Shown here one piece after another: positions 14,302 to 37,225 of a stretch of DNA of 44,207 nt (positions are counted from its first letter, which is position 1; the number at the start of each line of letters is the position of its first letter). The notes under the pieces are model-generated. The model worked only from the letters and a program-made list of their open reading frames with translations, had not been told where the DNA came from and searched no databases. Where the stretch lies: the NCBI GenBank assembly GCA_015493615.1, contig WGCV01000054.1:1-44207 (forward strand), given 5' to 3'. Both the position numbers and the translations under genes were made by a program. The stretch comes from Melioribacteraceae bacterium (GTDB lineage Bacteria; Bacteroidota; Ignavibacteria; Ignavibacteriales; Melioribacteraceae).

Positions 14302-14562
14302 ATGAAACGGTTGCCTGATAAATTTAAAAAATATTTTTGGGATTGTGATTTTAGCGAATTAAATATCATTAATCATAAAGATTATATTTTAAACAGACTA
14401 CTTGCATATGGAGATTTATCGGTGATTAATTTTATATTTACAACATTCTCTCTAAGTGATATTTCAGTTTTCTTAAATATTAAAGGACAAAAATCTTTGA
14501 GCAGGACAAACTATTTGTTTTGGCAAAAACTGGTTAAATATGAAAAACTCTGGAAAAAATGA
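14302..14562 (+). CDS. Small putative antitoxin-like partner (DUF6922-like) of AbiEii-type protein
   Basis: An 86-residue helical protein beginning MKRLPDKFKKYFWDCDF. Proteins with this 'FWD.DF..L....ikdyIl.RlL.yGd...i..' pattern sit directly upstream of AbiEii-type nucleotidyltransferases in many Bacteroidota and are annotated as DUF6922. Its 3' end overlaps the AbiEii-like start by 23 bases, so the two are translationally coupled. It is likely the antitoxin-side partner, by position only. An in-frame TTG lies one codon earlier; the ATG is chosen. Confidence 0.7.
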   Translation: MKRLPDKFKKYFWDCDFSELNIINHKDYILNRLLAYGDLSVINFIFTTFSLSDISVFLNIKGQKSLSRTNYLFWQKLVKYEKLWKK

Positions 14563-15193
14563 TTTAATTTACACGGTTTTGGATGATGACAGAAGGGAAA
14601 TTCTTGATAAATTATCCGTTTTTAAAAATCATTTTTATCTTGCCGGAGGGACCGGGCTTGCTCTTCAATTAGGACACAGAAAATCAGTCGATTTTGATTT
14701 TTTTACTTCGCAAGAATTTGAGAATGACAAACTTATAAACTTTGTTAAAACAACTTTTTACGGAACAAAAATTTCCGTTATTCAAAATGAGCTTAATACG
14801 CTGACTTTTTTATTAAATGAATCTATTAAATTATCATTGTTTAAACTTCAGTATTCTAACGTTTTACCTTTGCTTCAAACTGAATTTTTTAATTTAGCTC
14901 AAATTCTTGAAATCGGCGTAATGAAATTGTTAGCTCTTTTCAGAGCTACTTATAAAGATTATGTGGATATTTATTTTATTCTTCAAAAATACGACTTAGC
15001 CGAATTGATAAACTTAGCAAAGAAAAAACATCATGAACTGGATATAGGAATCTACTTGCGGGCTTTGCTTGCGTATGACGATGTTGACGATTTCCCAATA
15101 TCGTTTATGCAGAATTTTGAAATAAACAGAAAAGCGGTTTTCGGTTTTATTGAAAAAAAAACAATTGAGTATTTGGAAAATTCCTTAGAATGA
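14540..15193 (+). CDS. AbiEii-type nucleotidyltransferase (type IV toxin-like)
   Basis: A 217-residue protein with the AbiEii fold: the GGTGLALQLGHRKSVDFDFF block at 36-55 holds the Gly-rich loop and the two metal-binding aspartates (Asp51, Asp53). A later 'TYKDYVDIYFIL' block is also typical. AbiEii toxins transfer nucleotides, in characterised relatives onto tRNA ends, and act in phage defence or plasmid stability. The upstream 86-residue gene overlaps it. The cluster context (repeats, four-helix-bundle cassette) fits an acquired accessory island between sugar-synthesis genes. Confidence 0.85.
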   Translation: MKNSGKNDLIYTVLDDDRREILDKLSVFKNHFYLAGGTGLALQLGHRKSVDFDFFTSQEFENDKLINFVKTTFYGTKISVIQNELNTLTFLLNESIKLSLFKLQYSNVLPLLQTEFFNLAQILEIGVMKLLALFRATYKDYVDIYFILQKYDLAELINLAKKKHHELDIGIYLRALLAYDDVDDFPISFMQNFEINRKAVFGFIEKKTIEYLENSLE

Positions 15194-15737: not shown

Positions 15738-17090
15738 ATGAATAATAAAGAAGAAATATTAAACAAAATCAACAATAAATCCGTCATAGTCGGTATTGTC
15801 GGCTTGGGATACGTCGGTTTGCCGCTCGGATTGGAATTTGCCGAGAAGAATATTAAAGTAATCGGTTTTGATGTCGATGAAAGGAAAATTCCTGTTTTAA
15901 TGAACGGTGAAACATACATCAAGCATATTCCGGCTGAAAGAATTTCGAAAGCTGTTAATTCCGGATATTTTGAGGCGACGTCTGATTTTTCACGTCTGCC
16001 TGAAGTTGACGCAATTTTAATTGCAGTACCTACTCCCCTAGACGGACACCGCGAACCGGACATGAAGTATGTGGTTTCGTCTGTTGATATAATAAAAAAA
16101 TACTTAAGAAAAGGACAGCTTGTTACTCTTGAATCTACAACCTATCCGGGAACGACAAGAGAAATAATGCTTCCCGAATTTGAGAATGCATTAAATTATC
16201 AAGATAAAAAAGATGCAGAAAAATGGTTGGTCGGTGAAGACTTTTTTCTTGCTTACAGTCCCGAAAGAGAAGACCCGAACAACCCGAATTTTAACACATC
16301 TACAATTCCGAAAGTAGTCGGAGGCGTAACGGAGAACTGCTTGGAAGTAGCGCGCAAACTTTACGATTTGGTTATAGTTAAGACCGTTCCGGTTTCATCA
16401 ACCGAAGCCGCCGAAGCTACAAAAATAGTCGAAAATGTTTTTCGCTCAATTAACATTGCGCTGGTAAATGAGCTGAAAATGGTGTTTGATAAAATGGGAA
16501 TTGACGTTTGGGAAGTAATTGACGCGGCAAAAACAAAACCGTTCGGATTTACTCCCTTTTATCCCGGTCCCGGACTCGGCGGGCACTGCATTCCGATTGA
16601 CCCCTTTTATCTGACATGGAAAGCCCGCGAATTTGAAATAAACACAAGATTTATTGAACTTGCCGGTGAAGTAAATACATATCAACCATATTACGTGGTA
16701 CAAAAAGCGCTTGAACTTATGAATGAAAACGGAAAATCTTTAAAAAATTCCAAAGTACTGATTCTCGGAGCGGCTTATAAAAAGAATATTGACGACATGC
16801 GTGAATCGCCTTCGTTAAAACTAATTGAGATTTTCAGGGAGAAAGGCGCGATTGTAGATTACAGCGATCCGTACATTCCCGTTTTGCCTCATACGAGAAA
16901 ATATCAATATGATATGAAATCCGTAGAATTAACGGAAGAAAACCTAAAGTCATTCGACTTAATCGTTTTAAGCACGGACCACGACGATTTTGATTATCAG
17001 TTCATAAAGGACAACGCGAAAATAATTCTTGATACAAGAAACGCCTTTGAAAAACACGGGATTTATTCGGAGAAGGTTTTTAAAGCGTAA
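15738..17090 (+). CDS. wbpA: WbpA-type UDP-N-acetylglucosamine 6-dehydrogenase
   Basis: A 450-residue nucleotide-sugar dehydrogenase that oxidises the C6 alcohol of a UDP-sugar to a carboxylate with two NAD+. The Rossmann motif is GLGYVGLPLG (22-31), and the catalytic Cys284 lies in PGLGGHCIPIDPFYL (277-291). The TPLDGHREPD segment (99-108) and overall length favour the UDP-GlcNAc 6-dehydrogenase subgroup (WbpA/WbpO) over UDP-glucose dehydrogenase. It makes the UDP-GlcNAcA substrate for the WbpB-like enzymes encoded at 7718 and perhaps 39048. GGAG at 15729-15732 supports the start. Confidence 0.88.
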   Translation: MNNKEEILNKINNKSVIVGIVGLGYVGLPLGLEFAEKNIKVIGFDVDERKIPVLMNGETYIKHIPAERISKAVNSGYFEATSDFSRLPEVDAILIAVPTPLDGHREPDMKYVVSSVDIIKKYLRKGQLVTLESTTYPGTTREIMLPEFENALNYQDKKDAEKWLVGEDFFLAYSPEREDPNNPNFNTSTIPKVVGGVTENCLEVARKLYDLVIVKTVPVSSTEAAEATKIVENVFRSINIALVNELKMVFDKMGIDVWEVIDAAKTKPFGFTPFYPGPGLGGHCIPIDPFYLTWKAREFEINTRFIELAGEVNTYQPYYVVQKALELMNENGKSLKNSKVLILGAAYKKNIDDMRESPSLKLIEIFREKGAIVDYSDPYIPVLPHTRKYQYDMKSVELTEENLKSFDLIVLSTDHDDFDYQFIKDNAKIILDTRNAFEKHGIYSEKVFKA

Positions 17091-17285: not shown

Positions 17286-18080
17286 TTGAAAGAAATCAAT
17301 TTAGAAAAATTAATAGAAATAGCACAGGAAGCGGGAGATGCAATTCTCGATGTGTATAATTCCGAGGATTTTGGAGTTGAAACCAAGTCGGATAATTCTC
17401 CTTTAACGAAAGCTGATAAAGCCTCGAATGAGATAATTGAAAAAAGATTGAAGGAAGATTACCCCAAAATTCCAATCTTATCTGAAGAAGGGAAGGAAAT
17501 AGCATTTGACGAAAGAAAAAATTGGGAATATTTCTGGCTTGTTGATCCTTTGGATGGGACTAAAGAATTCATCAAACGCAACGGCGAATTTACAGTTAAT
17601 ATTGCTTTAATTGAAAATCAAAAACCTATCGCCGGTGTAATTTATGTCCCAGTAACTAAAGAATTTTATTACGGCGATGTAGAAAATGGAAGTTACAAAA
17701 TCGAAGCTGACGAAACAAATGTTAAAATAAATGTAAGCGGTAAATCAGCTTCTGATAAATTAAATGTCGTTCAGTCGCGTTCGCATTCCGGCGAAGAAGA
17801 GAACAAATTTTACTCCCAATTTAATATCCACAAGAAGTTATCAAAAGGAAGCTCTTTGAAAATTTGTATGGTTGCCGATGGAACCGCCGATATATACTAT
17901 AGAAGCGGACCGACTTGGGAATGGGACACTGCAGCCGGACATGCAATTCTTCTTGGCGCCGGAGGTTCGTTTGTTAATAAAGATAAATCTGAATTGGTTT
18001 ATAATAAAGAAGTAATTAAGAATTTTGGGTTTATAGCAATTGGATTTAAAGGTTTAAATTTTCAGGTGGAAAATGGATAA
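17286..18080 (+). CDS. cysQ: CysQ-type 3'(2'),5'-bisphosphate nucleotidase
   Basis: A 264-residue member of the inositol-monophosphatase-like metal-dependent phosphatases. Metal ligands are visible: Glu67 in SEEG, Asp87 and Asp90 in DPLDGTKEF (87-95), and Asp214 in WDTAAGH. CysQ turns PAP, the by-product of sulfotransferases, into AMP. The same operon encodes ATP sulfurylase, APS kinase and a sulfotransferase, so it closes the PAPS cycle. The frame opens with TTG at 17286; no usable in-frame ATG follows near the N-terminus. Its 3' end overlaps the next gene by 8 bases, and it looks like the first gene of the long operon. Confidence 0.9.
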   Translation: MKEINLEKLIEIAQEAGDAILDVYNSEDFGVETKSDNSPLTKADKASNEIIEKRLKEDYPKIPILSEEGKEIAFDERKNWEYFWLVDPLDGTKEFIKRNGEFTVNIALIENQKPIAGVIYVPVTKEFYYGDVENGSYKIEADETNVKINVSGKSASDKLNVVQSRSHSGEEENKFYSQFNIHKKLSKGSSLKICMVADGTADIYYRSGPTWEWDTAAGHAILLGAGGSFVNKDKSELVYNKEVIKNFGFIAIGFKGLNFQVENG

Positions 18081-29894: not shown

Positions 29895-31057
29895 GAATCG
29901 TAATAATAAGTTCGGATCAATATACCTTTTTTGTTGATACTGTTTCGGAATTAGCCGAGCGAGGTCATGAAATTTACGTTTTTTGTTCCAAAGAAATAGG
30001 GAGTAAAAAAGGAATTCCTAAGATTGATAAAAAAAATGTACATATTAATAAAAAATTTATTGGTCTTTTATCCGCAGATTTTTCAAAAGTTCCAATTTTT
30101 TTGTTACCATTGACAATTTATCGTTTTAAAAATGAACTAAAAAAAATTAAACCGGATATTTTACATGCATTCAATTTGAAATGGTCAGGGTGGGTTAGTG
30201 CTTTTAGTGATTTTCATCCTTTTATATTAAGCGGTTTAGGTTCAGATATTTTAATTGAACAAGGTGCAGTTAAAAATTTAATATTAAAGTTATTGAGGCA
30301 ATACACATTAAAGAAGGCTGATATTGTCAGTGTTGTAAGTAAACAAATGTTCAAGCAAGTTAAAGAAGTTTCAGGGGAAAATAAAATTTTTTATTTTTCT
30401 CACGGTGTTAATACTAAAAAAATGTTTAAAATATTACCGGATGACTGCAAATTATATGATAAACTAAAGATAGATAAAAAAGAAAAAATAATTTTTAGTC
30501 CAAGGTACATTAGAGCAATTTATCAAATCAAACAAATAATTAAAGCCTTTAATTTATTAGTTAAAAATGAAGACAAATTTGGACCTTTTCGGTTGATTTT
30601 AGGCGGAGCAAAAGATAATGACCCCGAGTATTTTCAAGAGGTAATTAATTTGATAAATAAACTAAAATTAAAGAGTAAAATTTCTTTTACTGGCAGGTTG
30701 GATGAATATGAATGGAATGCCGTTTTTTTAATCTCTGATGTTATTGTTTCCTATCCAACAAATGACGGTTTGCCTGCAACGGTTTTAGAAGCAATGTATC
30801 TACGTGTGCCTCTGATTTTATCGAAAGTACCTTCCCTACAAGAAGTTTTGGAAGAAAATAAAAGCGCGCTTTTTTGTAATTCTAATGATTATTATGATTT
30901 ATATGAAGAATTAAAAAAATTTTTTACTACTATTGGATTAGCAAAGATACTTACTGATAATGCTTTTCTGATTTTTGAAAAAAAAGGCAGCTTTTTAAAT
31001 GAAATAAATAGTTTGGAAAAAATTTATGCCGGATTGATAAATGATAGCAATAATTGA
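29891..31057 (+). CDS. GT4-type glycosyltransferase
   Basis: A 388-residue GT-B enzyme. The donor domain has IFSPRYIRAIYQIKQIIKAF and NDGLPATVLEAMYLRVPLIL, with the conserved Glu of GT4 proteins. It overlaps its upstream neighbour by 4 bases and the HisH-like gene by 17 bases, so it is co-translated with the acetamidino module. It may transfer the WbpG-modified sugar, but this is only positional inference. Confidence 0.83.
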   Translation: MRIVIISSDQYTFFVDTVSELAERGHEIYVFCSKEIGSKKGIPKIDKKNVHINKKFIGLLSADFSKVPIFLLPLTIYRFKNELKKIKPDILHAFNLKWSGWVSAFSDFHPFILSGLGSDILIEQGAVKNLILKLLRQYTLKKADIVSVVSKQMFKQVKEVSGENKIFYFSHGVNTKKMFKILPDDCKLYDKLKIDKKEKIIFSPRYIRAIYQIKQIIKAFNLLVKNEDKFGPFRLILGGAKDNDPEYFQEVINLINKLKLKSKISFTGRLDEYEWNAVFLISDVIVSYPTNDGLPATVLEAMYLRVPLILSKVPSLQEVLEENKSALFCNSNDYYDLYEELKKFFTTIGLAKILTDNAFLIFEKKGSFLNEINSLEKIYAGLINDSNN

Positions 31058-31652
31058 TTATGGAATGGGTAATTTGCGATCGGTCGCAAATATGTTGCAA
31101 AAAATTGGTCATAAAGCCATTATTACATCTGAGGCTGAGATAATTGCAAAAAGCGATAAAATAATTTTGCCAGGCGTAGGGGCTTTCAAACAAGGTATGG
31201 AAAATTTAAATAAAATGAATTTTTTACCGCTACTAAATGATTTGGTCCTTAATAAAAAAAGGAAAATTCTAGGTATTTGTTTGGGAATGCAATTGATGAC
31301 TAATTGGAGTGACGAGGGAAATAGCGAGGGTTTTGGATGGTTTGACGCCAAAACTATTAAATTTAACCTGGATACAACAAAATATAAAATACCTCATATG
31401 GGTTGGAATTCAATCAATTTGAAAAAAGGATCGCTATTATTTAACAATTGTCCGAATAATTTACGGTTTTATTTTGTCCATTCCTATTATGTCGTTAATA
31501 ACAATACTAATGACGTGGTTGCAACCGCATTCCATGGTATCGAATTTACTGCCTCAATGGGGAGGGAAAATATATTTGCTACACAGTTTCATCCAGAAAA
31601 AAGTCATAAATTTGGCATGTGTGTTTTAAATAATTTTGCGAGTATGGAGTAG
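31041..31652 (+). CDS. hisH: HisH-type glutamine amidotransferase of the polysaccharide cluster
   Basis: A 203-residue class I glutaminase of the HisH family. The nucleophile Cys80 lies in GICLGMQ, and His184/Glu186 in QFHPEKS complete the triad. In histidine synthesis HisH feeds ammonia to HisF; here the adjoining HisF-like and WbpG-like genes show the polysaccharide version, in which the ammonia converts an N-acetyl group to an acetamidino group. No other histidine gene is present. It overlaps the upstream glycosyltransferase by 17 bases; the next gene starts 6 bases after its stop. Confidence 0.9.
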   Translation: MIAIIDYGMGNLRSVANMLQKIGHKAIITSEAEIIAKSDKIILPGVGAFKQGMENLNKMNFLPLLNDLVLNKKRKILGICLGMQLMTNWSDEGNSEGFGWFDAKTIKFNLDTTKYKIPHMGWNSINLKKGSLLFNNCPNNLRFYFVHSYYVVNNNTNDVVATAFHGIEFTASMGRENIFATQFHPEKSHKFGMCVLNNFASME

Positions 31653-31658
31653 ATTTAT

Positions 31659-32423
31659 ATGCTTATGCCAAGAATAATTCCCGTATTAACATTTATTGAG
31701 GGAAGGCTAGTTAAAACAATAGGATTTAAAAAACCTAATTATATCGGCGACCCCATAAATGCAATAAAGTTATTTAATGAATTGGAAGTTGATGAGTTAG
31801 TTTTTTTAGATATTAGGGCTTCAAAAGATAAAACCCCAATAGATTTTGATTTAATATCAGATATTACAAGCGAGTGTTTTATGCCTGTTGCTTATGGAGG
31901 AGGAATAAAAACTTTTGAGGAAATTGAAAAATTGTTTTTGTTGGGAATTGAAAAAATAATTTTGAATACTAATGCATTCAATAATCCGGATTTAATTAGA
32001 AGAGCGGCGGACAAATATGGTTCTCAAAGTATTTTGGTGTCGGTAGATGTAAAAAAGAACTATTTAGGGAAATACTCGACTTGGATAGAATCCGGAACAA
32101 AAAAAATAAACAGAGAGTTATCTGAAATAATTAGAGACTTTGAACAGTATGGAGTTGGCGAAATTATAATAAATTCAATCAATAATGATGGAAAAATGAA
32201 CGGATATGATATATATTTAATTAAAAAGGTTACCTCTGTTGCAACTGTACCTGTTGTGGCAGTCGGTGGGGCTGGGGAAATGAATCATTTTAAGGAAGCA
32301 ATATTCGAAGGTGGAGCGTCTGCCGTTGGGGCAGGGTCGATGTTTGTTTATCATGGAAGTGAAAAAGGGATTCTCATTAATTATCCTTCAAGAGAAGAAA
32401 TAGATAAATTATTTGCGTATTAG
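31659..32423 (+). CDS. hisF: HisF-like ammonia-channel protein lacking the catalytic Asp11
   Basis: A 254-residue (beta/alpha)8 barrel of the HisF family. Histidine-pathway HisF uses Asp11 and Asp130 for catalysis. Here Asp130 is kept (SVDVKK at 128-133), and Lys19 is kept, but position 11 is Thr (IIPVLTF at 6-12). Loss of Asp11 with conservation of the barrel is expected of HisF2-type proteins that only channel ammonia from HisH to a WbpG amidotransferase. Neighbours on both sides support this. The stop is overlapped by an upstream in-frame start of the next gene; the better start of that gene lies 16 bases past the stop. Confidence 0.88.
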   Translation: MLMPRIIPVLTFIEGRLVKTIGFKKPNYIGDPINAIKLFNELEVDELVFLDIRASKDKTPIDFDLISDITSECFMPVAYGGGIKTFEEIEKLFLLGIEKIILNTNAFNNPDLIRRAADKYGSQSILVSVDVKKNYLGKYSTWIESGTKKINRELSEIIRDFEQYGVGEIIINSINNDGKMNGYDIYLIKKVTSVATVPVVAVGGAGEMNHFKEAIFEGGASAVGAGSMFVYHGSEKGILINYPSREEIDKLFAY

Positions 32424-32426
32424 TTT

Positions 32427-32430
32427 GGAG
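32427..32430 (+). promoter_or_regulatory. Ribosome binding site deciding the WbpG-like start
   Basis: GGAG nine bases before the ATG at 32440 favours that start over the in-frame ATT/TTG-like codons further upstream. Confidence 0.5.
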
Positions 32431-32439
32431 TTATCTTAT

Positions 32440-33561
32440 ATGAATAACATAGAATATTGTTCTCGTTGTATTTTGGATTCAGAAGTGCCTGGAGTTAAAA
32501 TAGAAAACGGAATTTGTAATCAATGCAAAAATTTTGATGAAAGGGAAAAATGGTTTCAAGAATCTAAAGAGAGGGAAGTTGTTTTTGAAAATTTGATAAA
32601 AAAAATAAAAGAAGATGGAAAAAATAAAAAATATGATTGTATAGTCGGTGTAAGTGGAGGACAAGACAGTTCATATACTTTATATCATGCTGTAAAGCTT
32701 GGTTTACGCCCTATTGCCGTTCATTTTGATAATGGTTGGAACTCTGAGCAATCAATTCGAAATATTAAGAAAATCATAACAAAATTAGGAGTTGATTTAT
32801 ATACATATGTTGTGGATTGGAGCGAATTTAAGGATTTACAAGTCTCTTTTTTAAAAGCGTCTGTCCCTGATGTTGAAATACCAAGTGATATTGGTATCAA
32901 AGCCACATTATATAGAACTGCAGTTAAATACGGTATTAAGTATATTTTATATAGCGGATCTAATTATCGAACGGAAGGAGAAATTCCAAAAGAATGGACA
33001 TATATGGATGGTCGTTATATAAAAAGTGTCCAGAAAATTTATGGAACAAAAAAGCTTAAAACATTTCCAAATGTTTTAGCAAAAGATATATTTTATTTTC
33101 ATGTTTTAAAAGGTGTCCAAATTATAAAAATGTTAGATTATGTTGAATTTGGCAGCAACGAAGTTCTTGATTTACTTAAACAAAAGTTTGATTGGGAATA
33201 TTATGGCGGCAAACATTTTGAATCCGTTTATACAAAATTTATTCAAACGTATTTTTTACCTGAAAAATTTGGTATTGACAAACGAAAAATTCATTATTCT
33301 GCATTAATTAGATCAGGACAACTTAATAAAGAGGATGCGCTAAAAAAATTAGAGCAAAAACCGTATGACGAAGAAACAATAGAAGAAGATAAAAGTTACG
33401 TGCTAAAAAAATTAAAATTAAGTGAAAAAGAATTTAATCAAATAATGAAGTTACCTATTAAATCTTATAAAAATTATAAGACATACGATTCGTATAAACA
33501 AAAATATGGAAAGTTAATTGATTTTTTAAAAGCCAAGAAGCTTTGGCCTAAAATAGCGTAA
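32440..33561 (+). CDS. wbpG: WbpG/PseA-type N-acetyl-sugar amidotransferase
   Basis: A 373-residue PP-loop amidotransferase. N-terminal Cys7/Cys10 and Cys26/Cys29 form a zinc knuckle (CSRC..CNQC), and the ATP pyrophosphatase loop is SGGQDS (72-77). WbpG uses ammonia passed from HisH through HisF to turn an N-acetyl group of a sugar nucleotide into an acetamidino group, as in P. aeruginosa O-antigens and in flagellin glycans (PseA). The substrate here is probably a UDP-2,3-diacetamido uronic acid made by the WbpABDE enzymes of this window. It comes directly after hisH and hisF homologues, completing the three-gene module. Confidence 0.92.
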   Translation: MNNIEYCSRCILDSEVPGVKIENGICNQCKNFDEREKWFQESKEREVVFENLIKKIKEDGKNKKYDCIVGVSGGQDSSYTLYHAVKLGLRPIAVHFDNGWNSEQSIRNIKKIITKLGVDLYTYVVDWSEFKDLQVSFLKASVPDVEIPSDIGIKATLYRTAVKYGIKYILYSGSNYRTEGEIPKEWTYMDGRYIKSVQKIYGTKKLKTFPNVLAKDIFYFHVLKGVQIIKMLDYVEFGSNEVLDLLKQKFDWEYYGGKHFESVYTKFIQTYFLPEKFGIDKRKIHYSALIRSGQLNKEDALKKLEQKPYDEETIEEDKSYVLKKLKLSEKEFNQIMKLPIKSYKNYKTYDSYKQKYGKLIDFLKAKKLWPKIA

Positions 33562-33571
33562 TAAAAATAAT

Positions 33572-35797
33572 ATGGAAAAAATGATAAAAAAAATAGTTAC
33601 TCTTGGACCCTCAACTAATACTATTGAAATCTTAGAAAAAATAAAAGAGCGAGTGGTAGATTTTGTAAGAATTAACATGTCACATTCGACGCTTAAAGAT
33701 TTAAAGTATTTTATTGAGTTGTCTCAAAAAGTTGGATTAGATTTCATTATTGATACGGAGGGTTCTCAAATAAGAACTTGTGAAATTAAAAACGGCGAAT
33801 ACTTTTATTATGAGAATCACGAAATCTTGCTTTATGAGGAAGAAATAATTGGAGGACCAGATAAAATTTCATTACGTCCCAAAGAAATATTTCAACAATT
33901 AAACGTTGATGATATATTATATATTGATTTTGATACTCTGGTTTTGTCGGTGGTAGATGTTTCAACAAAAAATAAAGGATTTATTAAAGCAAAAGTAATT
34001 TCGCAAGGTATATTGGGGAGTAACAAAGGCGTGGTTGTTGATAAACAAAGTGGAAACGAAATAGTTTTACCGCCATTGACCTCAAAAGATTTTGAAGCTA
34101 TCAAGATAGGGCAGAAATACAATGTGAACTTTATTGCTTTTTCATTTGCACGAAATAAGGAAGCTATTGAATATGTTAGAAATGTTTCAGGAATGAAAGT
34201 TATTTCTAAAATTGAATGTGTTGACGCCCTAAAGAATTTAGAAGAAATTATTGAAGTAAGTGATTATTTGCTTATTGATCGCGGAGACTTAAGTAAAGAA
34301 ATTCCTATTGAGAAAATACCTCTTACACAAAGAGTGATTTTATCCAAAGCAAAGAATATGAATAAAGAAGTTTTTGTCGCTACAAATCTTCTTGAATCTA
34401 TGATACACCATCGAAAACCTACAAGAGCTGAGGTGCATGATATTATTGAAACAATTAATGAAGGGGCTAATGGTTTGGTGCTTGCCGCGGAGACTGCAAT
34501 AGGAAAATATCCATTAGGATGTATTAATATGTTAAATAAACTGATTCTGCATTCGAAATTTGTAGAGAAAAAGATTAAGCAAAATGAAGAAATTACTCCT
34601 ATAAATATTAAACGTTCGTATTTGCTCGAACATTCTGTATCCTCTAATTTAATTGAACCGAATGGTGGCATACTTGTAAATAGAATTGGTAATCCGGAAG
34701 ATTTTACTAGTGAACTTTCAGACCATAAGATAAAATTGAATGAAAATACGCAGCTTGATTTTGAACAAATATCAATTGGAACATATAGTCCTTTGGAAGG
34801 ATTTTTAACAAAGGAAGAATTGAATAGTGTTTTGGATAATTTAAGGTTGCCTGAAGGAGCAATATGGCCGATTCCCATATTACTTGATGTTGATTACGAT
34901 ATTTGGAAAAAGTTATCGAATGGAGAGCTTGTTCCTTTAGTTAATTCAAATAGCGATGAAGTTGTTGGTATGATAGAAGTGGGGGACTTATATGAGTATG
35001 ATCCTTTGAAAATCGCACTAAAATTTTACGGAACTACTGTTGCCGAGCATCCGGGTGTAGCAATTACTGCTTCAATGAGTGGATATTATATCGGAGGGAA
35101 AGTTACGTTATTCTCTTTTTCAGAGAAGAAATTTAAGTATTCTTTTACGCCGAGGCAAATCAGAAGACTTTTTGAAGAAAAAAATTGGGAGAAGGTTGTT
35201 GGCTTCCATACTCGTAATGTTATTCATAAAGCGCATGAATTTATCCAATTTGAAGCTATAAAAAGAGCAAAAGCCGATGGAATTTTATTACATCCGGTTG
35301 TTGGGAAAAAAAAGAAAGGCGATTATCAGGCTCAATATATTATTGAAAGTTATGAATATATGATTAAAAATGTTTATCCGCCCGATACTGCTTTATTAGC
35401 AGTATTTTCCACTTATTCCAGATATGGAGGAGCAAAAGAAGCTTTATTTACCGCTCTTTGCAGACAAAATTTCGGCTGTAGTCATTTTGTGGTCGGAAGA
35501 GATCATACAGGAGCGGGAATAAGTACTACCAACAATTCTGGTAGTATTTTCGACAAGTTTCCGGATTTGAAAGTGAAAATTATTAAATTTGACGAGGTGT
35601 TTTTTTCAAAATTACAAAATAAATACATTGAAAAAACGTCTGAGTATGACCTTTCGGATAAGTTATCTATAAGCGGAACCGAAGCAAGAAAAATTCTATT
35701 GAGAGGCGATAATCCTCCTGAATGGTTTATGAGGGAAGAAATTGCTTCAATAATAACAACAGCAATAAAAAAGGGAGTAGAGGTTTTTGTTAAATAA
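33572..35797 (+). CDS. Pyruvate-kinase-like domain fused to ATP sulfurylase (Sat)
   Basis: A 741-residue fusion. Residues 4-335 are a pyruvate kinase barrel with its B domain. Catalytic and ion-binding positions are kept: Arg33, Asn35, Ser37 and His38 (VRINMSHS), Asp61-Thr62 (DTEGSQIRT), Lys213 and Glu215 (ISKIE), Asp239 (RGDL), Thr271 (ATNLLESM), PTRAE (283-287) and ETAIGKYP (307-314). Differences include DTKGPEIR becoming DTEGSQIR and GDLG becoming GDLS. The usual C-terminal regulatory domain is absent; residues 357-740 are ATP sulfurylase, with the PUA-like N-domain, HTRNVIHKAHE (546-556; usually QTRN) and GRDHTGAG (642-649). The APS kinase gene overlaps its stop. It should make APS, and the kinase half may regenerate ATP from PEP. 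Whether that half is active is unknown. Confidence 0.9.
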   Translation: MEKMIKKIVTLGPSTNTIEILEKIKERVVDFVRINMSHSTLKDLKYFIELSQKVGLDFIIDTEGSQIRTCEIKNGEYFYYENHEILLYEEEIIGGPDKISLRPKEIFQQLNVDDILYIDFDTLVLSVVDVSTKNKGFIKAKVISQGILGSNKGVVVDKQSGNEIVLPPLTSKDFEAIKIGQKYNVNFIAFSFARNKEAIEYVRNVSGMKVISKIECVDALKNLEEIIEVSDYLLIDRGDLSKEIPIEKIPLTQRVILSKAKNMNKEVFVATNLLESMIHHRKPTRAEVHDIIETINEGANGLVLAAETAIGKYPLGCINMLNKLILHSKFVEKKIKQNEEITPINIKRSYLLEHSVSSNLIEPNGGILVNRIGNPEDFTSELSDHKIKLNENTQLDFEQISIGTYSPLEGFLTKEELNSVLDNLRLPEGAIWPIPILLDVDYDIWKKLSNGELVPLVNSNSDEVVGMIEVGDLYEYDPLKIALKFYGTTVAEHPGVAITASMSGYYIGGKVTLFSFSEKKFKYSFTPRQIRRLFEEKNWEKVVGFHTRNVIHKAHEFIQFEAIKRAKADGILLHPVVGKKKKGDYQAQYIIESYEYMIKNVYPPDTALLAVFSTYSRYGGAKEALFTALCRQNFGCSHFVVGRDHTGAGISTTNNSGSIFDKFPDLKVKIIKFDEVFFSKLQNKYIEKTSEYDLSDKLSISGTEARKILLRGDNPPEWFMREEIASIITTAIKKGVEVFVK

Positions 35798-36314
35798 TAA
35801 GAAAGTTTTGTGGTTCACAGGATTAAGCGGTTCAGGGAAAACAACTTTAGCGTACAAAGTTAAAGATGAATTACAGAAAAAAGGATTAAAGGTCGCTATA
35901 TTTGACGGTGATAGCATAAGGGATAAAATTACTAAAAAGTTGGGTTTTACAAAAGAGGATATATGGGAAAATAATAAACTAATAGCAAATTTAGCGGCTG
36001 AAAACATTTCTAAATTTGATGTAATTTTAGTTCCGGTTATTTCTCCTTATAGAGAACATAGAGCAAAAGTACGTGAAATTATCGGAGATGTGTTTAATGA
36101 AGTTTACATTAGAGCATCATTGGAAGAGTGTATTAAAAGAGATACTAAGGGACTTTATAAAAAGGCAATAAATGGAGAGATAAATAATTTAATTGGTTTT
36201 GCGGAAATATCGCCATACGAGTCTCCAGTGAATCCTGACCTAATAATTGATACCGAAAACCTTACAATTCATGAAAGTTTATCGCGCATAATTAATTTTG
36301 TTATAAACCAATGA
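35787..36314 (+). CDS. cysC: APS kinase
   Basis: A 175-residue adenylylsulfate kinase: P-loop GLSGSGKTT (12-20), FDGDSIRDK (39-47), SPYREHR (86-92) and the RDTKGLYKKA lid (118-127). It phosphorylates APS to PAPS, releasing ADP. It starts with TTG at 35787 inside the end of the Sat fusion (11-base overlap) and overlaps the sulfotransferase start by 4 bases, so APS synthesis, PAPS synthesis and sulfation are coupled in expression. Confidence 0.92.
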   Translation: MLNNKKVLWFTGLSGSGKTTLAYKVKDELQKKGLKVAIFDGDSIRDKITKKLGFTKEDIWENNKLIANLAAENISKFDVILVPVISPYREHRAKVREIIGDVFNEVYIRASLEECIKRDTKGLYKKAINGEINNLIGFAEISPYESPVNPDLIIDTENLTIHESLSRIINFVINQ

Positions 36315-37225
36315 TTATGAATATTAATAAACCAATTTTTGTTATAGGAACTAATAGAGCAGGCAAAGAACTTTTTATAAAGTTAATAGCTTATCATAAA
36401 GAACTAGGTTGGTTATCAAATTATCATATGAGATTTCCCACAAAGGAAAGCGTTGCTTACTTGAATCGTTTGCTGGATTTTCCCTTATTATATTATACTA
36501 AAATTAAATATATGAAAGGGATACCAAAACCTTCTTCTTCCTATATGTTCTGGAATAATATTTTTGAGGGTTTTAGGAGACCGTTTAGAGATTTAAGGGA
36601 AGACGATGTCAATCCGTTGGTTGAAAAAAAAATACGTCAGAAGGTTTATAACGTTCTAAAGAAAGAGGGGAAAAAAAGATTTCTTGCACAATACTCCGGC
36701 TGGTCAAGAATAGGTTTTTTCAAAAAGATTTATCCGGATGCTAAATTCATACATATTGTACGGGACGGAAGAGCAGTCGCGAATTCTTTAACTAATTACG
36801 AAGGATGGGAAGGATGGGAAGGAGTGTATAATTGGCGGCTTGGTTATTTACCGAATGAAGAAGAAAAAAATTTTTTAGAAAATGTGAATTGGTCCTTTTA
36901 TGGAATTGCAGCATTAGAGTGGAAAGCTGTTGTATCAAATATAATTGAAGTTAGTTCTAAACTAAGTAAAGATGATTTTTTAACGATTCGATACGAAGAT
37001 TTGGTAAGCGAACCATTAGAAACAGTTTTTAATATTTTTGATTTTTGTGAGTTGGAAATAAACAGAAAGCAATACTTAAAACATTTTAAAACTATCAAAA
37101 TTATAAATGCAAACGAAAGTAAATTCAGAATTCCCTCTTGGAAACAAAATTTAAGTGTTGAAATTGTTGCTGAACTAAATGAATTTTTGTATAAAGAACT
37201 TAAATATTTTTCTTACCTTACTTGA
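36311..37225 (+). CDS. PAPS-dependent sulfotransferase
   Basis: A 304-residue soluble sulfotransferase. The 5'-phosphosulfate loop is in FVIGTNRAGKELF (10-22), a variant of the usual GxxRSGTT, and the 3'-phosphate site is FIHIVRDGRAVANSL (147-161) with Arg152 and Ser160. It probably sulfates a sugar of the repeat unit or its lipid-linked precursor in the cytoplasm. It directly follows CysC with ATG overlap. Confidence 0.88.
   Translation: MIMNINKPIFVIGTNRAGKELFIKLIAYHKELGWLSNYHMRFPTKESVAYLNRLLDFPLLYYTKIKYMKGIPKPSSSYMFWNNIFEGFRRPFRDLREDDVNPLVEKKIRQKVYNVLKKEGKKRFLAQYSGWSRIGFFKKIYPDAKFIHIVRDGRAVANSLTNYEGWEGWEGVYNWRLGYLPNEEEKNFLENVNWSFYGIAALEWKAVVSNIIEVSSKLSKDDFLTIRYEDLVSEPLETVFNIFDFCELEINRKQYLKHFKTIKIINANESKFRIPSWKQNLSVEIVAELNEFLYKELKYFSYLT

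Follow-up and report, generated by a model that had tools for sequence, protein, structure and literature searches.

A pyruvate kinase barrel fused to ATP sulfurylase next to APS kinase in a sugar gene cluster of a Melioribacteraceae bacterium

The bifunctional 3′-phosphoadenosine 5′-phosphosulfate (PAPS) synthases, among them human PAPSS1 and the Aquifex enzyme (2gks), are built from an ATP sulfurylase and an adenosine 5′-phosphosulfate (APS) kinase. The same two families, joined in a single polypeptide or encoded by neighbouring genes, occur in the system described here, which lies in 44,207 nucleotides of a Melioribacteraceae bacterium (assembly GCA_015493615.1, contig WGCV01000054.1, positions 1 to 44,207 of the forward strand; hereafter the window). 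One gene of the window codes for a pyruvate kinase barrel followed by a complete ATP sulfurylase, and cysC, coding for APS kinase, stands directly behind it. In contrast to the known PAPS synthases, the pyruvate kinase barrel precedes the sulfurylase and the residues in contact with sulfate differ. Sulfurylase and CysC of the window are encoded by separate, overlapping genes and thus do not form a single-chain bifunctional PAPS synthase, while ten homologues carry both families on one chain.

Other described systems share single features with this locus. The ATP sulfurylase-pyrophosphatase fusions of stramenopiles and haptophytes, as outlined in one account (PMC2275785), likewise join a by-product-removing helper to the sulfurylase; there the removal of pyrophosphate helps the sulfurylase, whereas here the removal of ADP would help the APS kinase. 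Laboratory PAPS synthesis with regeneration by pyruvate kinase and phosphoenolpyruvate (PEP) uses the same set of activities, but in the procedure reported these are separate enzymes chosen by chemists (PMC9885120). Ordinary pyruvate kinases have the fold, the PEP phosphate-binding, metal-binding and catalytic residues of the fused kinase half. Unlike them, the fused family is devoid of the C-domain, combines Gln117 with Thr113 and mostly Glu114, carries Phe in place of the hinge Asp and forms a separate clade. Among the titles and abstracts listed by searches of open-licence PMC full text, none describes a pyruvate kinase-sulfurylase fusion, which is weak evidence of absence.

One reading frame for pyruvate kinase and ATP sulfurylase

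The fusion of a pyruvate kinase barrel to a complete ATP sulfurylase in one frame was confirmed. The kinase half reached 215.8 bits with the Pfam family PF00224 (threshold 30), and the Pfam scan of the 741-residue protein listed no pyruvate kinase C-terminal domain (PK_C). As a sequence-only reading of the locus had described, the place of this regulatory domain is taken by a full ATP sulfurylase, in which the PUA-like and the catalytic domain as well as the RNxxHxxH, GRDH and ISGTxxR motifs are present. The fusion stayed below the cut-offs of TIGR01064 (pyruvate kinase equivalog; 265.2 versus 306.4 bits) and TIGR00339 (ATP sulfurylase; 315.4 versus 322.95 bits). An AlphaFold2 model calculated from an alignment of 28 sequences had a mean predicted local distance difference test (pLDDT) score of 85.6 and a predicted template modelling (pTM) score of 0.75, with low confidence in the linker (residues 338-348) and at residues 647-653. 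Compared with solved structures, the sulfurylase half of the model gave a best Z of 46.4 (1i2d) and the kinase half a best Z of 35.9 with pyruvate kinase chains. An assembly error joining two genes was ruled out by the same domain order in independent genomes and plasmids.

Alignment to solved pyruvate kinases recovered all the residues that had been read from the sequence as catalytic or metal-binding (K213, E215, D239, T271 and the N35-S37-H38 loop). The catalytic lysine, the metal ligands and the PEP/phosphate-binding residues, namely R33, N35, S37, H38, D61, R68, K213, E215, R237 and D239, were invariant in 61/61 non-duplicate homologues, and T271 was replaced once, by Ser. Constancy of R237-D239 is partly due to construction, because these positions lie inside the search pattern; the other invariant residues lie outside. 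The 30 free-standing kinases among the homologues all keep the full set, which counts for catalysis since a scaffold or a sensor acting in cis would not need it. This bears on the idea that the domain does not turn over substrate but senses PEP or a nucleotide and thereby controls sulfate activation. Such a sensor would have a parallel in fungal ATP sulfurylase, whose APS-kinase-like domain is regulatory according to one account (PMC2275785), and the missing allosteric C-domain and several changed active-site positions also speak for it; given a catalytic set kept throughout the family, including copies unable to regulate in cis, we consider it improbable.

Instead, the fusion may provide the first half of a system that makes PAPS with PEP as fuel, for use by a sulfotransferase of the surface-polysaccharide cluster. 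Its ATP sulfurylase domain would convert ATP and sulfate into APS and pyrophosphate. CysC, encoded next door and fused in some relatives, would phosphorylate APS to PAPS and leave ADP, which the attached pyruvate kinase domain would return to ATP at the expense of PEP, releasing pyruvate. After sulfate transfer, CysQ would remove the remaining 3′-phosphoadenosine 5′-phosphate (PAP). Judged from the sequences, PEP-driven recycling of ADP within PAPS synthesis is the best explanation of the fusion, and we put its probability at about 0.5. Three lines of evidence from other systems argue for it: APS is described to inhibit APS kinases through an enzyme-ADP-APS dead end (PMC3734648); human PAPSS1 was reported to accumulate ADP and to form almost no PAPS when pyruvate kinase and PEP were left out, but to give PAPS and no ADP peak with them (PMC9885120); and the pyrophosphatase fusions set a precedent. 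Turnover of PEP and ADP, sulfate as the substrate and a physical coupling of the steps are what we infer. The sequence-only reading had suggested that ATP regeneration from the ADP of CysC would pull the unfavourable sulfurylation forward. Regeneration as such fits best with the intact catalytic set, the CysC neighbour and the PAPSS1 result in vitro. A direct pull does not stand, as the step on which ADP recycling acts is that of APS kinase and the block of the sulfurylase is pyrophosphate; the sulfurylase would be helped only indirectly, because the APS-kinase step pulls APS away.

Distribution, descent and conserved neighbours of the kinase family

A search for the domain order showed that the fusion recurs, with CysC and sulfotransferases nearby, and is more widespread than first claimed. 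Counting the window, it is present in 33 genomes or plasmids. Among the 97 genomes of a search in relatives, own genome included, it was present in two, the window genome and a member of another family of the same order (G060), whose full-length fusion is 41% identical end to end and is followed by CysC; the upstream genes were read by eye as cysQ and a sugar dehydrogenase (L032). Scanning a genome collection (described as holding 84,980 species) with the kinase half yielded 63 loci. Since the scan relied on two short patterns derived from two fusions, it surely misses members. Kinase and sulfurylase shared one frame in 30 of these loci, of which two are cut by contig ends (L045 and L055, left out), one has a frame break in a draft genome (L064:7995-10221) and one is G060 again. 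They are labelled Neomarinimicrobiota, NC10, Chloroflexi, Woesearchaeota, Patescibacteria-type groups, Omnitrophota, Planctomycetota and Bacteroidota. Ten of the 30 are single chains of pyruvate kinase, sulfurylase and CysC (904-940 residues). Another 30 loci encode free-standing kinases of 316-359 residues (24 Pelagibacter-type, four Gammaproteobacteria, one Euryarchaeota, one Niyogibacteria), and the remaining three are other or partial. L080, L097 and L100 were left out of most of the counts; L003 and L072 come from a single genome, which was counted once except in one residue comparison. Plasmid records matched in 185 cases, and two rhizobial megaplasmids covering at least 80% of the query represent two more fusions. 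Of 21 matching phage records none reached 80% coverage of the query; the 15 that were listed align with the pyruvate kinase half alone. In a Flavobacterium sample the fusion gene was found in 1 of 150 genomes, namely the query's own.

This sporadic occurrence (2 of 97 genomes, one of 150 Flavobacterium genomes, own genomes included) and the position among sugar genes make it very improbable that the fusion is the glycolytic pyruvate kinase of the cell, joined to the sulfurylase by chance. A separate pyruvate kinase is encoded elsewhere in the window genome (a 479-residue frame) and in 11/30 fused and 9/20 solo genomes examined. What favours a glycolytic role is that 30 of the 50 examined genomes with the family showed no PK_C domain, although many of them are small and their completeness is not given.

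In a tree with 31 fused and 30 free kinases, the divergent L080 included, both forms grouped as one clade against 22 ordinary pyruvate kinases of the order, with a support of 99 in the Shimodaira-Hasegawa-like approximate likelihood ratio test (SH-aLRT), and fusions were found in both main branches. Likewise, the 30 rows of fused sulfurylases separated as a single clade from 41 unfused rows (SH-aLRT 99). Both trees come from short searches with SH-aLRT support only and with long branches flagged. The topology fits a single old fusion that was later split in SAR11 and the gammaproteobacteria, the alternative being two gains. Barrel-only pyruvate kinase genes in genomes of family f2 (L033:5791-6765, L034 and L035) were considered as free-standing relatives and rejected, as they are without the signature and branch apart. 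Their products of about 325 residues carry Gly for the active-site Thr and belong to another short pyruvate kinase branch; by eye, no sulfate-related gene was seen among the neighbours of L033, the only ones read.

Pfam scans of the genes flanking the 31 fused loci, at most two per side, covered 103 proteins. Sulfotransfer_1 (18) and Sulfotransfer_3 (16), which are overlapping sets, were the commonest families, followed by APS_kinase (12), Inositol_P, the CysQ family (4), and PQ-loop (3). The 113 neighbours of the 30 solo loci included APS_kinase in 19, Sulfotransfer_3 in 7 and Sulfotransfer_1 in 5 cases. By chained phmmer a sulfotransferase-like gene was detected in 23/31 fused and 19/30 solo loci; two of the 23 look like spurious open reading frames (L053 and L054), and no Pfam family was assigned to the sulfotransferase-like proteins of L066 and L087. 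CysC lies within 50 bases of the fusion in 7 of the 21 two-domain loci. In the fetched stretch of the solo loci a CysC-like gene was present in 22/30, at a distance of at most 50 bases in 15, of which 13 have it on the same strand. Because CysC is fused or near in both forms, the ADP-making type of 3′-kinase is the partner common to fused and free kinases. Its fusion in ten loci and its proximity in 22 solo loci support ADP recycling.

Changed active sites and genomes with a free kinase

Several observations weigh against this reading. Although catalytic, metal and phosphate residues are kept in the alignment to characterized pyruvate kinases, other active-site positions are changed. The hinge Asp (second Asp of DDG) is Phe (F120) in 60/61 homologues. 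Counted along the alignment, F120 corresponds to E. coli PykF D127, which presumably acts at the nucleotide site; a literature search for an E. coli PykF D127N mutant found nothing. Compared with ordinary pyruvate kinases, Asn272 replaces Gln in 61/61 and Ala305 replaces Ser in 52/61, and Asp236 and Ser241 (both 61/61) as well as Lys242 (59/61) differ too. At position 117 in rabbit numbering Q66 stands for Lys or Glu. The monovalent-cation signature of Thr113 (60/61), Glu114 (57/61) and Gln117 (61/61) belongs neither to the K+-dependent Glu117 nor to the K+-independent Lys117 group as these are described in PMC8835810. Gln is among the residues reported at this position in crenarchaeal pyruvate kinases, and the enzymes tested in that report, with Ser, Arg or Val, did not need a monovalent cation (PMC4374775).

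The sulfurylase half is changed where sulfate would bind. According to the description of the Allochromatium vinosum enzyme (PMC3779200), Gln199, Arg201 and the NH of Ala299 hold the sulfate of APS, while Thr200, Asn202 and the GRD loop hold its AMP part. The window protein has H546 and T646 at the positions of this Gln and Ala. His replaced the QxRN Gln in 31/31 fused sulfurylases, and Thr or Ser replaced the GRDHA Ala in 29/30, with one Ala; one further sequence is cut by a frame break before the latter site. Neither change occurred in 36 unfused sulfurylases of the phylum of the window, all of which have Gln and Ala (one gene is included twice, as L010 and L131, and the degenerate L044 and L054 copies are not among them). 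Gln and Ala were also found in the three solved enzymes aligned and in four gammaproteobacterial sulfurylases.

CysC is altered as well. The Arg of its DRxxN motif, which we take to contact APS, is Ile in the window protein and in 19/20 CysC sequences of fused loci (Arg in L101). Ordinary CysC proteins have Arg in 24 of 25 readable motifs and Ile in one (L153); six further matches without the DGD anchor were not read, and L156 gave none. Near free kinases (n = 22) the residue is Ile in 13 sequences, Arg in 6 and Val in the other 3. CysC of the gammaproteobacterial locus L066 (138.2 bits) and of the SAR11 locus L090 (119 bits) fell below the APS-kinase cut-off of 138.7. The replacements in sulfurylase and CysC could mean a different anion or a different way of holding sulfate. 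Because positions in all three active sites are changed, plain sulfate and plain ADP chemistry are not to be assumed.

Moreover, no sulfotransferase-like gene was found in the fetched stretch of 8/31 fused and 11/30 solo loci, and a Sat-type sulfurylase was not found in 25 of 29 solo genomes surveyed (all of the 30 but L059); these 25 are single-cell and metagenome assemblies and possibly incomplete. CysD was detected in only one of them. Since they encode the free kinase, it seems to work without this APS route, and without a detected ATP sulfurylase, in some genomes. The other four, all gammaproteobacterial, combine free pyruvate kinase and CysC with an ordinary Gln/Ala-type ATP sulfurylase and with aprA or aprB nearby, which we count in favour of ADP recycling. 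In eight SAR11-type loci we found a HIGH-motif nucleotidyltransferase of about 110 residues, assigned by motif (such as GRYQPWHxGH ... ISATKIR). It is fused to a CysC-like kinase in six of them, close to the free pyruvate kinase (L077, L086, L088, L089, L094 and L096), and the same kind of fusion is present in a Niyogibacteria genome (L059:2789-3544). Pfam CTP_transf_like reached the proteins of L059 and L090, not that of L088, and accounted for 5 of the 113 solo-side neighbours. The kinase-nucleotidyltransferase proteins may stand in for ATP sulfurylase and APS kinase.

These changes would also fit a unit whose activated and transferred group is not sulfate. The pyruvate kinase-like domain would make or help to make a precursor by phosphoryl transfer from PEP, the remodelled sulfurylase would adenylate it, CysC would add the 3′-phosphate and an enzyme of the sulfotransferase fold would transfer the group. 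Similarly, a CysC homologue serves phosphoramidate transfer in Campylobacter. Replacement of the residues that touch sulfate, with retention of those described as holding AMP (PMC3779200), the TRN motif and the GRDH loop, the Ile in CysC, the pyruvate kinase changes and the SAR11 nucleotidyltransferase in place of ATP sulfurylase all point in this direction. Nevertheless, a hydrogen bond could come from His too, and Ala makes its contact through the backbone NH. Sulfotransferases and members of the CysQ family often lie nearby, a TauE-family permease occurs in two loci and a similar protein in a third, and ATP sulfurylase is of the ordinary kind in the four gammaproteobacterial genomes. On balance, such a non-sulfate unit is unlikely, though it is the main rival of ADP recycling. 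Its full form, in which this pyruvate kinase branch, a remodelled adenylyltransferase and a CysC-type 3′-kinase build a PAPS-like non-sulfate donor for surface sugars, with the HIGH-motif nucleotidyltransferase as a substitute in SAR11, is doubtful.

Genes around the fusion and implications

In the window, the fusion belongs to a run of plus-strand sugar genes (Table 1). The sulfotransferase gene shares four bases with cysC, and cysQ lies 15.5 kb upstream of the fusion within the same run, in agreement with the polysaccharide setting proposed earlier. Genes for HisH, a HisF-like protein and a WbuX sugar amidotransferase are located immediately upstream of the fusion (31041-33561), and an AbiEii-family nucleotidyltransferase (putative type IV toxin) is encoded upstream of the sugar cluster (14540-15193).

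Table 1. Coordinates of the fusion gene, its domains and associated genes in the window.
Feature	Position	Strand	Evidence or remark
Pyruvate kinase-ATP sulfurylase fusion gene	33572..35797	+	single open reading frame, 741 residues, no internal stop
Pyruvate kinase barrel, residues 6-316	33587..34519	+	PF00224, E 1.1e-63; alignment to solved pyruvate kinases
PUA-like N-terminal domain of ATP sulfurylase, residues 361-514	34652..35113	+	PUA_2 PF14306, E 7e-36
ATP sulfurylase catalytic domain, residues 522-729	35135..35758	+	ATP-sulfurylase PF01747, E 4.1e-64
cysC, APS kinase, overlaps fusion end; TTG start uncertain	35787..36314	+	TIGR00455, 179.4 bits (cut-off 138.7); PF01583, E 5.7e-48
Sulfotransferase	36311..37225	+	Sulfotransfer_3 PF13469, E 6.6e-19; PF00685, E 1.6e-8
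cysQ, 3′(2′),5′-bisphosphate nucleotidase, expected to clear PAP	17286..18080	+	TIGR01331, 301 bits (cut-off 228.8)
Nucleotide-sugar dehydrogenase beside cysQ	15738..17090	+	TIGR03026, 403 bits

Several neighbours in the related loci have domain combinations of their own. In L040:13042-14361, a protein of 440 residues combines APS kinase with a CysQ-family (Inositol_P) domain; its gene lies 2.8 kb downstream of a pyruvate kinase-sulfurylase fusion. A PQ-loop membrane domain is fused to CysC in L049:10258-11055, and a PQ-loop protein is encoded in L056:10794-11090. TauE/SafE permeases lie near the pyruvate kinase gene in L038:7165-7881 and L059:3591-4331; the protein of L081:9522-10250 resembles them in phmmer alone, without a Pfam match. 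Near the fusions of L044 (2828-4516) and L054 (5373-6971) there are ATP sulfurylase-APS kinase proteins with degenerate sulfurylase motifs and a kinase that looks intact.

If recycling of ADP by PEP is correct, cells met the stalling of APS kinase on ADP and APS in the same way as chemists do in vitro, and surface sulfation would be tied to PEP, a fuel drawn directly from glycolysis. The single chains of pyruvate kinase, sulfurylase and CysC may serve as PAPS factories for sulfated sugars. Furthermore, the family points to a branch of pyruvate kinases that left glycolysis and raises the question of which role its free-standing copy plays in SAR11.

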